Shown here: in pieces, positions 2,423-29,713 of the stretch
Layout: each line of letters starts with the position of its first letter
Position numbering within the stretch: position 1 is the stretch's first letter
IMG/VR virus record: IMGVR_UViG_3300046836_000508
Coordinates: 1 to 38,642 of that record
Length of the DNA: 38,642 nt
From: a virus
Reading direction: 5' to 3' (one strand)
Translations under genes and position numbers: made by a program
The notes under the pieces: model-generated
The model's input: the letters and a program-made list of their open reading frames with translations, nothing else
Database searches by the model: none
What the model was told of the DNA's origin: nothing

Positions 2423-4195
2423 CTATATGTCGATTAGTCCACAAGGACGGTAGTTATCCTTGAGATTGATGAGATGCGCAACGGTCCAACAAACTCGATT
2501 GGCGTTCGGTTCGGTCGTGTAGAGTCGGGTGGCTTGGAAGCGCGCGGGCGTATCGATGTACTGCGCCCAGTTGCGGTTAATGTAGTAGAGGAAGGAGTTT
2601 TCGTTCCAGAAAGTGATGTGGCGAGGGTCCTGGTAGGCACCGCGGCCGTCGGTGGATGGTACTTGGCACATGAGCCAGCCGCCGGGACGCAACACGCGGG
2701 ATATTTCCTTCATTGTTTGCATAGGATTTGGCAACATAGCAAGGGAATCTGTCGCGCGAATCACACTTGCGGAACTTTCAGGGAAATCATCTATGGTCCA
2801 TGTCGCGATATAACCATCTCGTGCGCTAGATTTGCAGCCTATCTCAAGTTTTGGGAACTGGAACTTACTATTCATTTCAGCCCATCTATCTACAATCCGT
2901 TCGATGTATTTATCGTAGACTGAATAGACTCCTCTTTGGATATCATCGTTGAAACGTAACCATGAGTTTTGTCCATGAACCCTGTAGACGTAGAGTGGCT
3001 TGTCGATGTGCAGCATCTTTGTGGCAAGGTACATGCGACAACAGAGATCGGAGTCATCGAGAATGGTCATGGACTGGTCATAACCACCTATTTGTTGGTA
3101 GATGGAGCGGCGGAATGCGCGCAGGTGGTCGGGTCCGTACCAAATGCGCGATACAGATTCAGGGGTTGGCGGGAACGACACAAATTCATCGAGTTTCTTG
3201 CCGCGGAAGGTGACCTCACGATATCGCCAGCCGAAGGATTCATCGTAGCGAGGCATCGGATCGAGCGATTCGGTGACATGGAGGGAATTCGAGTAGACGA
3301 AGCCGATAGCTTCATCCTCGAAGGCGTGCTGGACCTCGGCGATCGCGGTGGGCATCAGGAGATCATCATGGTCGAGTTCGAGAAGAATGTCTCCAGTGCA
3401 TTGTTCGCAAGCATAGGATTTCAGTGCGCCGACACGCTCGGGGGATTTGTATAGAACCATTGGCTTGACTCGTGAATCGCCAAAGTTGGTGGGCACGCCA
3501 CCGTTGTTGTAAGCGATGATCCATTCGTGGAAGTCTTGATCTTTGATGGAATCGTAGGTATCGCGCAGGTAAGCATTGGAATGTGAAGCAGTGTAGATGC
3601 TCACACGGTTGCCAGACTTCACCTCGACTAGTACACTGCCGGATGCTCCCATAACCATAATCGAACGCATATCTGGAAACACTTGGTAATTAGGGAATTG
3701 CTTGACTAATTGCTCGATGAACACGCCATCACAATCATAGCGATCCAGGTCTGGCCAGCGAGCAATCCCACGCTTGACTAAGATACTTCCAGTGTCCGCT
3801 TTCATTATTCCCGGTGGATCATTGAAGAAGTGCTTGCCGAATTGTGGATCGGCATGGTCAATGGGAAAGAGTGCCCAGTCAGATGTGACGCACTTCATGT
3901 CTCTCAACACATTGTCATCGGCAAATACGTTGTCGTCATCTAGATGGTAGATGTAATCACCCTTAACTAGAGAGTAGGCGTTATGCCGGCAGGTATGGCC
4001 CCAATTGCGATGTGGACGATCGCAACGGATGATGCGGCGTTGCGGATGTTCGATGCGAACGAGGATGTCGGTCGAGAGTTCCGTATCGACCATAATGAGA
4101 TGTTCCCACGAGCTATTTGTCTGACGATCGACTGACTCGCAGCATTTCAGTAGAGATTCGCGCAGGACGGTTGGTGTGATTATGGAATATCTCAC
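2423..4195 (-). CDS. Three-domain protein: GT2 glycosyltransferase - GT2 glycosyltransferase - SAM methyltransferase
   Basis: The start chosen is the GTG at 4195, which overlaps the upstream TGA by four bases. An upstream start at 4333 would read 46 codons out of frame through the preceding gene. Residues about 1-190 form a GT-A fold beginning RYSIITPT, with a nucleotide-sugar/metal motif DDDN at 86-89. Residues about 197-440 form a second GT2 domain with DHDD at 275-278, DDSD at 380-383 and the typical closing YRVHGQNSW. From about 449 there is a partial class I methyltransferase (KLEIGC; LRPGGW at 502-507). GT2 enzymes move sugars from nucleotide-sugar donors. The substrate is unknown. Nearby collagen-like and beta-rich virion proteins are candidate targets, which is inference. 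Confidence 0.82.
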   Translation of the reverse strand: MRYSIITPTVLRESLLKCCESVDRQTNSSWEHLIMVDTELSTDILVRIEHPQRRIIRCDRPHRNWGHTCRHNAYSLVKGDYIYHLDDDNVFADDNVLRDMKCVTSDWALFPIDHADPQFGKHFFNDPPGIMKADTGSILVKRGIARWPDLDRYDCDGVFIEQLVKQFPNYQVFPDMRSIMVMGASGSVLVEVKSGNRVSIYTASHSNAYLRDTYDSIKDQDFHEWIIAYNNGGVPTNFGDSRVKPMVLYKSPERVGALKSYACEQCTGDILLELDHDDLLMPTAIAEVQHAFEDEAIGFVYSNSLHVTESLDPMPRYDESFGWRYREVTFRGKKLDEFVSFPPTPESVSRIWYGPDHLRAFRRSIYQQIGGYDQSMTILDDSDLCCRMYLATKMLHIDKPLYVYRVHGQNSWLRFNDDIQRGVYSVYDKYIERIVDRWAEMNSKFQFPKLEIGCKSSARDGYIATWTIDDFPESSASVIRATDSLAMLPNPMQTMKEISRVLRPGGWLMCQVPSTDGRGAYQDPRHITFWNENSFLYYINRNWAQYIDTPARFQATRLYTTEPNANRVCWTVAHLINLKDNYRPCGLIDI

Positions 4196-4749
4196 TGAGC
4201 ACACCAAATCGTATCGCAGGCTACTCGTGCATCGGGGATAAGGCTGCGCACCGCGGCGGCTACTTCTGGGCAACGTGGATCGTTGAAGTCGTGGCCACAA
4301 AGGAGTCCGGTCGGGCGCAGGAGAGGTCGCCATGTGAAAATGTCCTCACACACAGAGTTGTAAGAGTGGTCTGCATCGAGAAAGATCATGTCGAAGGTTA
4401 GCATGTTCGATTTGAGCAGGCTGGCTGCGGCCTTGGAAGTCATGCGCAGCGCTAGGAGCTTGCCGCCGAGATGGTCGCGCAAATTGTATTGGAACTCTTG
4501 CAAGAGCCAGTCAGGACGCGAGTAGAGTTCGAGTTCACGGTCAGCGACGGTCCAGCTGTCTTCATATCCGATCGCATTGTCGTCCCAGGTATCCACGGCG
4601 AAGATATGCCCGCGCGTGTTGTCGGCAAGAACTTTCGTTGTGCGGCCACGCCATGAGCCGACTTCCACAATAGAGAAATATCCCTTGGCAGTGTCAGCCA
4701 GCCAGGCGAGTTCTTTTTCGCTCATCCATCCAGGGATGCTAGTACTCAA
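4192..4749 (-). CDS. Class I SAM-dependent methyltransferase (Methyltransf_24-like)
   Basis: The sequence shows the SAM-binding motif I EVGSWRGRT near residue 29, the acidic AVDTWD near 51, and FLDADHSYNSV near 123, the metal/SAM signature of the Methyltransf_24/CmcI-like group. The family usually begins with an IPGW motif, which is present just after the chosen TTG at 4749 (GGAG nine bases upstream). An ATG at 4725 is the alternative. An earlier start at 4851 would lie inside the previous gene. It ends in a GTGA overlap with the glycosyltransferase fusion, so the two are probably translated together and may modify the same glycan or protein. Confidence 0.8.
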   Translation of the reverse strand: MSTSIPGWMSEKELAWLADTAKGYFSIVEVGSWRGRTTKVLADNTRGHIFAVDTWDDNAIGYEDSWTVADRELELYSRPDWLLQEFQYNLRDHLGGKLLALRMTSKAAASLLKSNMLTFDMIFLDADHSYNSVCEDIFTWRPLLRPTGLLCGHDFNDPRCPEVAAAVRSLIPDARVACDTIWCAQ

Positions 4750-6022
4750 GTGAAATGTCTCCGGTGGATTCCTGTGCGATACCACCAGTGAGGCTGTTTT
4801 CCATTTGAATGTGACCTGCGGCTGGCTGAACTGCCCATTTAAAGGTGGCAACGTGCATAATCCAGGCGACAGATGTGGTTAAGGTTGCGAGTCCTTGGTA
4901 GGCAGCTCCCACTTGCACGCTACGATCGAACATGCATTGCCCTTCTGCGTTGGTCTGTCGTTTCACAAAGTTGGTTCCCGCACTGACGCTGACACCTAAG
5001 TCGTCTTCAATGCAGACAATGAGTTCACAAGGAACGGCTGTAACCGCAGTCAGGTTACTGGTAATGGCTGTACCTGTTCCAGTGTTAGGCGCGGATGGAG
5101 AAGCATCGAATGCGCTGGTGGCCATGCCTCCATATTCTGCGACGGATACGCCGCGACCGTTGGTGTTCGATGCGGATTTGGTTAAGGTGACAGTGGTGGC
5201 TGATCCTCCGATGATGTTTTGCGCGTACCAGAAGTATTCACGCTGTACAGAGCCCCAGTTGGTGGGATTGCCGGGAAATCCGGTGAAGGTGTCCACTTTA
5301 TCATCGGCGATGGTCATCGTTTCGGATTGGACGGATAAGCCTCCACTGACCACAAGGAGATTTCCCGCAGCGCTGATTCCGGGGAGAGATGCAGCGACTG
5401 TGTTTCCGCTGACAGAAGTGAATACTTGATTGGCAAACTGAACCAGCTCCGCTTCGGTCTGGAAGGTTATGTTCTCGGTGAATTGCACCCAGGTATCACC
5501 GTCAGCGGCTGCGGTCTTGCCGCCATAGTCGAGGGTGACGGTTTGGCTGCCACCCATCGTGCCGACGTTGGTGACATACCAGGTGATTACAATGCGGTCG
5601 TTGACGCCGATGATGGTGGAGGTGGGGGCAGCATCAGTCCAGTTCTGAACTGCGGCGGAAGTGGTGAGTTCAACGCCCTTAGAAGTATCAGAGATGACGG
5701 TTCCGTCTGACCAACGAGAGTGAATGCAACGCATTCCGGCATTGGCGAGGTTGTTCGATTCCAGTGCCCAGCAGTTGTTGGTAATGGTGCCTGAGATGGT
5801 GACGGCTGCGGCTAAGGGAGGAGAAATAAACTGGAGGATGGCTCCGCCGGCCGTCTTGGTACATTGAATTTTTGTGCCGGATGCGACGGTATTGGTAATG
5901 GAAGTGATGAAGGTGAGAACTTGAGCGGTCACGCTGGCATAGCTGTAAGTTGGATTGGACGCAAATTGATTGGTCAGATTGGCGGAGGACTGGAACTGTT
6001 TCATAAAGAGCTTGGTGGCCAT
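4739..6022 (-). CDS. Beta-rich putative virion surface or tail-associated protein, 427 aa
   Basis: Almost the whole sequence is Thr/Ser/Ala/Val/Gly-rich with short alternating hydrophobic stretches, as in beta-sandwich decoration or fibre proteins. It has no signal peptide after MATKLFMKQF. The segment FENITFQTE- to -VSVAEYGGM resembles the repetitive strands seen in metagenomic phage surface proteins. It lies between collagen-like fibre genes and sugar- and methyl-transfer genes. The assignment is by composition and location; no catalytic motif is visible. The ribosome binding site before the ATG is weak. Confidence 0.6.
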   Translation of the reverse strand: MATKLFMKQFQSSANLTNQFASNPTYSYASVTAQVLTFITSITNTVASGTKIQCTKTAGGAILQFISPPLAAAVTISGTITNNCWALESNNLANAGMRCIHSRWSDGTVISDTSKGVELTTSAAVQNWTDAAPTSTIIGVNDRIVITWYVTNVGTMGGSQTVTLDYGGKTAAADGDTWVQFTENITFQTEAELVQFANQVFTSVSGNTVAASLPGISAAGNLLVVSGGLSVQSETMTIADDKVDTFTGFPGNPTNWGSVQREYFWYAQNIIGGSATTVTLTKSASNTNGRGVSVAEYGGMATSAFDASPSAPNTGTGTAITSNLTAVTAVPCELIVCIEDDLGVSVSAGTNFVKRQTNAEGQCMFDRSVQVGAAYQGLATLTTSVAWIMHVATFKWAVQPAAGHIQMENSLTGGIAQESTGDISLEY

Positions 6023-11625: not shown

Positions 11626-11829
11626 TTATGACCACTTCTCTTTCATTAACTCAAAGAATGGACGATCAATGACAACAGGAGCTTCGGCAAGATGATCTTC
11701 AGCCATTTCCCATGCTTCTATGTAAATCTTATCTCTCTCAGTGGCGATTCCTTTTTCCACTCGATCATAACAACCTGCAATGACTACCTTCCATAGCTCA
11801 AGTTGCCACTCTTTTTCATTGTATTTCAT
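11626..11829 (-). CDS. Hypothetical charged helical protein, 67 aa
   Basis: The start chosen is the ATG at 11829, whose A is also the last base of the upstream TGA. An earlier in-frame start at 11868 would overlap the upstream gene by 40 bases. The product is mainly helical, with many Glu, Lys and Trp (WQLELWKVVIAGCYDRVEKG; WEMAEDHLAE). It lies three bases upstream of the putative small terminase gene. No family recognised. Confidence 0.55.
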   Translation of the reverse strand: MKYNEKEWQLELWKVVIAGCYDRVEKGIATERDKIYIEAWEMAEDHLAEAPVVIDRPFFELMKEKWS

Positions 11830-12074
11830 CAGCTTAACCCTATATCTGCGGCCATTCGCTTTATCCAAGCAGAATCAACAAAAAAGGTATCCATCCATAC
11901 GCCTTCACGAAGCCCTTCCAATGTAGCTGTATTGATTGCATCGAATGTTGATTCGTGGACGGCCGGGATGACAATATCGGATGGAAAACTGAACACACGG
12001 AATGGAAATGTGCGCACCGCTGCGGCGGCGGTTATACCGCCTACTGTGAGCGATAAGAATCTGCGTCTATCCAT
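11829..12074 (-). CDS. Small protein with Tat-like signal sequence, 81 aa
   Basis: The N-terminus MDRRRFLSLTVGGITAAAA matches the twin-arginine pattern (RRxFL followed by a mildly hydrophobic stretch) and is followed by a possible cleavage region. The remaining ~55 residues are acidic and helical (HESTFDAINTATLEGLREG) and match nothing I know. No strong ribosome binding site precedes the ATG. Exported Tat substrates are rare in phage head operons, so the resemblance may be chance; it is what the sequence shows. Confidence 0.5.
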   Translation of the reverse strand: MDRRRFLSLTVGGITAAAAVRTFPFRVFSFPSDIVIPAVHESTFDAINTATLEGLREGVWMDTFFVDSAWIKRMAADIGLS

Positions 12075-28462: not shown

Positions 28463-28715
28463 GTTTGGAACAAAGATATCCAAGGGCGCCATGCTCTGGT
28501 GGCTCAGCAAGGAACTTCCTGTCCATGTGATCGATGTTATCGAGCCCACACTCGTCAACAACGACAACCCTCCTATGCTCATCCTGGCGATCCGCGTGCC
28601 TATTGGAGGTGTCGATCAGCGGCGAGAGGCGGTGCTGGGAGACTTCCTGTGCGTGGTGGATTCAACTGCAAGCGATCAGCTGCTCGATCGGCTAGAGCAG
28701 GCGAGAAAACAATGA
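28452..28715 (+). CDS. Hypothetical protein, 87 aa
   Basis: ATG at 28452 with GGGAG nine bases upstream; ATG 28446 also possible. The sequence [20 protein letters not shown] is followed by beta strands ([22 protein letters not shown]). Overlaps the HNH gene end. No family recognised. Confidence 0.52.
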
Positions 28716-28969
28716 GCCTGCGAAAATGTTGCGATGTTTGTGACAAGTATATGTACACCAAGGAAGGTGTACCCGAAGAAGGGGCCATCATCGAACAATG
28801 TGGAGAAGAGTTATTGCAAAAGTTGGATGATCTTATCCCAGGATTTGATGGCATGTCTGATGATCTAGACATCTGCTCTGAGTGCATCGTTGAGGTCGTG
28901 AAAGAGTTGCGTATCCGCGGCAACCGTCCCACGCAATCCAAGAAACCAGATATGGATAACTTAAAGTAA
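28712..28969 (+). CDS. Small Cys-rich protein, 85 aa
   Basis: ATGA overlap. KCCDVCDKYMY near the start and ICSEC near residue 60 form two C-x-x-C pairs, a probable zinc site; the C-terminus is acidic to basic. No closer assignment. Confidence 0.55.
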   Translation: MSLRKCCDVCDKYMYTKEGVPEEGAIIEQCGEELLQKLDDLIPGFDGMSDDLDICSECIVEVVKELRIRGNRPTQSKKPDMDNLK

Positions 28970-28980
28970 GGAGTATTCGT

Positions 28981-29508
28981 ATGAAATATCTATTGTCTAT
29001 TGCATTACTCATTATGTTCGCGCCGGCCGCGCATGCCGATCAAATCAATCACATTGAACTCTCTGGTGCCTGGGGCAATCAAGCCACCTTCCAAACGGCC
29101 TTCAACTGGGATGTAACCACCGAGAGCCTTGTAGCCGATACCATGACCACACAGGACACAGGCATAGGCGCACTCACGCTGGCATCTATTAGCCCTACCC
29201 GTGCCACATGGCTAGGCGACTTGGGCTACCTACAATTTTATCCGCATGACCATGGCATATTCGCGGCATTCGATATGGTGGGCGAGTGGACGACGGGAGC
29301 GTTGTTTGAGCTGTGGAAGTACAACGGGGCATTCTACTTTCCCAATGGCAGCGCCACGGCGAGTTCGGGGAGTTTAATCGTCACTGATCCACCGGATGTG
29401 CCTGTCTCCACGCCCGAGCCAAGCGAGATTGGGCTAGTGTTGGCTGGACTGGGACTTTTAGCAATACTGTACAAATTGAAAGGAGATACAAATGGACTCA
29501 CTATTTGA
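28981..29508 (+). CDS. Secreted protein with PEP-CTERM-like sorting signal, 175 aa
   Basis: A classic signal peptide (KYLLSIALLIMFAPAAHA, cleavage near 19/20) leads a beta-rich domain. The C-terminus has the PEP motif TPEPSE at 144-149, a hydrophobic span (IGLVLAGLGLLAILY, 150-164) and Lys residues. PEP-CTERM proteins are cut and anchored by exosortases in some Gram-negative bacteria. A phage carrying one suggests a protein shown on the host surface. The Lys cluster is weaker than usual. ATG after AAGGAGTATTCGT. Confidence 0.7.
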   Translation: MKYLLSIALLIMFAPAAHADQINHIELSGAWGNQATFQTAFNWDVTTESLVADTMTTQDTGIGALTLASISPTRATWLGDLGYLQFYPHDHGIFAAFDMVGEWTTGALFELWKYNGAFYFPNGSATASSGSLIVTDPPDVPVSTPEPSEIGLVLAGLGLLAILYKLKGDTNGLTI

Positions 29509-29713
29509 AGTTCATATGTTGAACGAGACAGGCAAGCAGAAGGCCAATGATATTGCTCAGGCATTCGACAACTGTTTGATGGCGATAACATCTTCAACTT
29601 TTGGATCGCTCTGCCCTCAAGGGCGTGAGTTGGCCATCGTAAAAACTAAACTAGAGGAAGCCTGCTTCTTCGCCAAAAAGAGCATGGCAAACGTACCGGA
29701 AAATCAAGCATGA
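29492..29713 (+). CDS. Candidate Acb2/Tad1-type nucleotide-sponge protein, 73 aa
   Basis: The sequence has FEVHMLNETGKQKANDIAQ then GRELAIVKTKLEEACFFAKK-SMA. This two-helix pattern, with the late RE-A-KTxLEEA-FFAKK block, resembles the Acb2/Tad1 hairpin family, whose members bind cyclic dinucleotides to block CBASS or Thoeris defence. The assignment is from memory of the pattern and needs a search. The gene overlaps the previous stop and has its own GGAG. Confidence 0.55.
   Translation: MDSLFEVHMLNETGKQKANDIAQAFDNCLMAITSSTFGSLCPQGRELAIVKTKLEEACFFAKKSMANVPENQA

Follow-up and report, generated by a model that had tools for sequence, protein, structure and literature searches.

A soil phage, represented by a whole IMG/VR virus record of 38,642 nucleotides (IMGVR_UViG_3300046836_000508, analysed here over its full length as the window), encodes a protein with a Sec signal peptide at its N-terminus and a PEP-CTERM-type sorting signal at its C-terminus, and the same two signals recur on unrelated cores in sister phages. 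On balance, we favour the explanation that the gene has an accessory role for the phage, its protein being exported, sorted by a host exosortase and active in altering the cell surface.

The open reading frame starts at an ATG closely preceded by an AAGGAG ribosome-binding site (table 1). Its N-terminus, MKYLLSIALLIMFAPAAHA followed by D, has recognizable n, h and c regions and an A-x-A site before Asp20. The protein ends in STPEPSEIGLVLAGLGLLAILYKLKGDTNGLTI; its final 32 residues, TPEPSEIGLVLAGLGLLAILYKLKGDTNGLTI, run from P-E-P through a transmembrane helix to basic residues (TPEPSEIGLVLAGLGLLAILYKLK plus 8 residues), although the basic part is weak, consisting of K-L-K before the 8 extra residues. 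Reading of the sequence thus bears out each element of the original prediction for this gene, namely the signal peptide, PEP motif, hydrophobic span and lysine, from which export and membrane anchoring are predicted to follow. The Thr/Ser/Asn-rich core contains no Cys, 12.1% Thr and 1.6% Lys plus Arg, compared with about 11% Lys plus Arg in other ORFs of these phages. Low Cys, few basic residues and high Thr were described for PEP-CTERM proteins by Haft et al. (PMC1569441), and both the composition and the architecture of the window protein, including the absence of an internal helix, fit that published profile. Searches of Pfam and the PDB found no known domain in the core, and an AlphaFold2 model (pLDDT 40) gave a mere hint of an all-beta structure and was set aside rather than put through a fold search. 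The cores of PEP-CTERM-tagged phage proteins likewise yielded no phage-family match in PHROGs.

Table 1. Coordinates of the features discussed, in the window unless another record is named.
Feature	Position	Strand	Evidence
PEP-CTERM-type secreted protein gene, 175 aa	28981..29508	+	ORF, RBS, HMM scans, homologues L002 (100%) and L003 (82%)
Sec signal peptide, residues 1-19, MKYLLSIALLIMFAPAAHA	28981..29037	+	sequence; anatomy kept in L003 homologue at 53% aa identity
Mature core, residues 20-143 (124 residues)	29038..29409	+	composition, purifying selection, no Pfam/PDB match
PEP-CTERM-like tail: TPEP, hydrophobic helix, YKLK, short extension GDTNGLTI	29410..29505	+	TIGR02595 aligned 29410-29463, 17.5 bits
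Overlapping downstream gene, 73 aa, Acb2/Tad1 hairpin family	29492..29713	+	PF24729 35.7 bits, cut-off 27; PDB 9ptq 'Acb2 homolog 43' E 1.7e-6
Upstream small gene	28712..28969	+	ORF reading; ends 11 nt before PEP-CTERM gene
Terminase large subunit, defines phage clade	8662..10887	-	PHROG 2; Tunturi_1/2 31% identity over 94%
G065 exosortase and PEP-CTERM gene pair	L107:4735-5250 and 5247-5909; G065 54443-55617	-	PF09721, TIGR04178

Against TIGR02595 (cut-off 16), the window protein scored 14.0 bits in a whole-protein hmmscan and 17.5 bits in a six-frame scan; against PF07589 (cut-off 20.7) it scored 17.6 bits as a whole protein. The HMM search proposed with the original prediction therefore gave a divided answer, with TIGR02595 narrowly exceeded in the six-frame scan and both models narrowly missed by the whole protein. 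The homologous tail in a related phage (TPEPAEIAMICVGLLGLAAWRKRCAS, locus L003 of phage G002) reached 16.5 bits (hmmscan) and 20 bits (six-frame) with TIGR02595, above the cut-off both times, and 18.0 and 21.3 bits with PF07589, above the cut-off in the six-frame scan only. A generic PEP-CTERM tail used as a tblastn query against phages found no match, which is uninformative because the query is short and of low complexity. The sequence evidence supports a PEP-CTERM-type signal in the window tail, with borderline HMM scores for this copy.

An assembly artefact is ruled out by a second assembly that also contains the gene: a 65-kb record from a different sample (G001, locus L002) represents the same virus, with 99.995% identity across the 19.7 kb compared. 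Together with the complete viral record, the phage operon and the related phage, this upholds the claim that the protein is phage-encoded. No homologues of the window protein were found in 50,697 phage records or 72,556 plasmids, and searches of genome contigs with this protein and with the large terminase (TerL) found no relatives and hence gave no prophage or host link for the window phage.

Comparison of the window and L003 cores (85.5% nucleotide and 93% amino-acid identity) gave dN 0.056, dS 0.67 and dN/dS of about 0.09 (Nei-Gojobori), showing purifying selection on the core. The signal peptide (51% nucleotide identity) and the post-PEP tail (38%) are too diverged for a dS estimate. TPEP is identical in the two proteins, and the helix and basic end are retained despite the diverged tail sequence, while similarity at the DNA level ends at the PEP codons. 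This pattern suggests that a conserved core has been given new ends for export and sorting.

Terminase alignment took in 80 viral contigs, and 50 records were scanned for PEP-CTERM signals. Three phages (G012, G013 and G014) exceeded the TIGR02595 cut-off of 16 in the six-frame scan, with 14.2-14.8 bits in whole-protein hmmscan, and the tail of G011 (TPEPGTLAVSAIALALFVLVYYHSTRR) fell below that cut-off (PF07589 19.3) but is clear on reading. In all, six distinct phages in or near the window terminase clade combine a signal peptide and a TPEP-CTERM tail on two or three unrelated cores. G012-G014 have a common second core, for which profile comparison with the window family aligns the tails only (E 7e-6); in G013 and G014 the tails extend further beyond the helix than that of the window protein. 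The third core, in G011, matches the window core with an E value of 0.08 at best, which is not significant, although a distant relation is conceivable. On the TerL tree, the tag-positive phages fall in three separate clades among negatives, which points to repeated acquisition of tagged genes; G002 is outside the tree because its fragment carries no terminase. Among about 30 outer, Tunturi-like records, none had a PEP-CTERM match over the cut-off. In G011, the PEP-CTERM gene with the third core is overlapped at its end by another gene (L119:1593-2207, +), whose product starts with a twin-arginine-like signal, MNRREFTGHLAMGAFVATAAV, possibly making this a cassette of exported proteins. The window also has a Tat-signal-like ORF near the terminase (11829-12074, -; 81 aa, starting MDRRRFLSLTVGGITAAAA) with no Pfam or PADLOC match.

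The combination of signal peptide, C-terminal PEP, helix and basic residue was sought among the 4470 ORFs of 60 aa or more in 16 phage genomes. Seven ORFs were returned, six of them real and one, in G018, a spurious antisense ORF; permuted control tripeptides not overlapping TPEP occurred 0-2 times in the same architecture. A scan for this architecture that was blind to the motif picked up the window protein and its homologue, together with a third TPEP protein and a spurious ORF. In the earlier scan of 50 records, a hit in G037 was rejected, its frame having no PEP. The comparison with other phages proposed originally has thus come out in favour of the prediction, and, since sister phages tag different proteins alike, these phages probably use a host exosortase.

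The gene lies in a packed run of small plus-strand genes and overlaps by 17 nt a homologue of Acb2, placed in the Acb2/Tad1 hairpin family by a PF24729 score above the cut-off. Members of this family are cyclic-nucleotide sponges against CBASS. The packed operon and this neighbour put the gene in an accessory, counter-defence-type region, and guilt by association with the adjoining anti-CBASS gene makes an accessory role in host takeover or phage competition likelier. In L003, the gene following the homologue encodes a C5 cytosine methyltransferase and the Acb2 neighbour is not kept. Homologues of the window Acb2 protein were observed in G005, G008 and G018, and no PEP-CTERM gene was found in those three. 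Elsewhere in the window, near the tail genes, lies a glycosyltransferase-methyltransferase fusion (2423-4333, -; PF00535, PF13489).

No exosortase was found in the window phage. In INPHARED, the proteins most similar to its terminase, portal and major capsid protein belong to Tunturi_1 and Tunturi_2 (approx. 31-33% identity), and for the portal and capsid proteins these phages supply the only matches. Both are podoviruses of Tunturiibacter (Acidobacteriota, Terriglobia; PMC11924767), which suggests an acidobacterial host, with 31% identity being a weak host predictor. Plasmid records of Acidobacteriota were searched for exosortases, and a plasmid of Paludibaculum fermentans (Terriglobia) carries one beside an XrtA-system deacetylase; the pathway therefore exists in the class to which the hosts of the nearest isolates belong. 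Four Granulicella plasmids had neither gene, which says little, and no PEP-CTERM match was found on these four or on the Paludibaculum plasmid, a set that was small and included no positive control. The exosortase-bearing host of the original prediction thus gains only indirect support, from an XrtA-type locus in the class of the cultured relatives' hosts; the phage itself contributes no exosortase.

Searching with a DNA pattern that represents VPEP[ST]T-type tails added 16 viral contigs, and the PEP-CTERM ORFs on all of them exceed the cut-off. Six of the 16, including contigs of 228 kb and 157 kb, match the large-terminase model PF03237 (five over its cut-off); some of the remaining ten may derive from host genomes or from regions flanking prophages. 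The 228-kb contig (L104:2509-3171 and 4179-4835, +) and the 157-kb contig (L108:3074-3883, +) encode one or two PEP-CTERM proteins each (TIGR02595 22-28 bits), and the former also has a TROVE/Ro60-like candidate ORF, identified by eye (L104 9137-10582). A phage unrelated to the window phage (G065, IMGVR_UViG_3300020061_000007, 61.7 kb; terminase, major head protein, tail spike and integrase by PHROGs) encodes an exosortase of its own (PF09721 124 bits, TIGR04178 68 bits), in which the catalytic Cys, Arg and His are intact and the Cys, Asn-x-x-Arg and His-x-x-x-Gly residues align with those of cellular exosortases. The exosortase gene overlaps the stop of a PEP-CTERM gene and lies beside the integrase, making G065 a temperate phage with a candidate lysogenic-conversion exosortase cassette. 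This exosortase has no match in INPHARED, and alignment and motif scans for further phage exosortases gave one degenerate remnant only, with a motif that would miss G065 itself.

In the mechanism we propose, the product would leave the cytoplasm through the host Sec pathway and stay anchored in the inner membrane through the C-terminal helix, so that TPEP faces the periplasm. The host exosortase would recognize the TPEP tail, cleave at PEP and remove the helix, a step we consider probable. The core would then reach the infected cell's outer envelope or exopolysaccharide layer and alter the cell surface to the benefit of the phage. We regard the case for such a surface role as evenly balanced. 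Display on the infected cell is what the signals suggest, and blocking of other phages, as originally proposed, is plausible; the leading guess is superinfection exclusion or receptor masking, although superinfection exclusion specifically is a guess we would not expect to be right.

The protein might instead be an ordinary periplasmic protein anchored by its C-terminal helix, with TPEP as a rigid hinge and no exosortase involved, which could act on DNA entry (Imm-type superinfection exclusion) or in lysis; a u-spanin role is ruled out by the sequence, which has no lipobox. The borderline HMM scores of the window copy, the short extension beyond the helix and the lack of an exosortase in the phage all fit such an anchor. 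A hinge sits less easily with the excess of PEP over permuted motifs in proteins built this way, with its retention where the flanking tail has been replaced, or with its recurrence on unrelated cores in sister phages, and we consider this explanation rather unlikely.

Two further explanations were weighed. The gene could be a captured host passenger, useless to the phage, given that the cores lack phage-family matches and that host PEP-CTERM genes are often duplicated and lost. However, it has its own ribosome-binding site in a packed operon and overlaps the Acb2 gene, whereas host PEP-CTERM genes mostly form single-gene operons; purifying selection on the core and repeated acquisition on the TerL tree also make a passenger improbable. 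Slightly more improbable still is a decoy, with which the phage would flood the host exosortase with substrate, leaving host PEP-CTERM surface proteins unsorted and the matrix or envelope weakened. A non-optimal tail would suit this purpose, as would different cores bearing similar tails if the tail alone matters, but a dN/dS as low as that of the window core indicates strong purifying selection, making the core more than a carrier. The reading we prefer therefore remains that of an exported, exosortase-sorted accessory protein.

Superinfection exclusion proteins such as T5 Llp and T4 Imm and Sp are lipoproteins or membrane/periplasmic proteins that need no exosortase. They are small, exported and act at the envelope of the infected cell, as may the window protein, for which alone exosortase dependence is proposed. 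The Acb2/Tad1-hairpin sponges act in cytosolic counter-defence, and their link to the PEP-CTERM protein is by position only. With the bacterial PEP-CTERM system (TIGR02595/PF07589; exosortase EpsH/Xrt) the window protein shares a signal peptide, a unique core, the tail of PEP, helix and basic residues, and the low-Cys, few-basic, high-Thr composition. It differs in that a phage encodes it, as a single copy in each genome and within a packed operon, whereas the bacterial genes are numerous paralogues in single-gene operons; its tail score is also borderline. A limited literature search found no description of phages using the exosortase pathway. A passage in one report describes TIGR03118-family proteins with a putative exosortase tail in hot-spring viruses as horizontal transfers (PMC11003980); these too are virus-encoded proteins with exosortase-type tails, from another family and habitat, and the passage is silent on mechanism, phage clade and gene neighbourhood. 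That mention, made in passing, stops short of a phage-borne exosortase pair and of a tag that recurs on unrelated cores within a single lineage of phages.

More tentatively, and with doubt outweighing confidence, a soil phage lineage may systematically hijack the host exosortase, displaying in the envelope independently acquired cargoes with host-matched signal peptides and PEP-CTERM tails, while some temperate phages, such as G065, bring their own exosortase. If so, the exosortase pathway would serve phages as well as their hosts and would offer them a route to remodel the surfaces of soil bacteria such as Acidobacteriota. PEP-CTERM proteins on viral contigs that otherwise lack an explanation would thereby acquire a use, and a single phage substrate, or the G065 exosortase-substrate pair, would offer a simple test system for a poorly understood sorting pathway.
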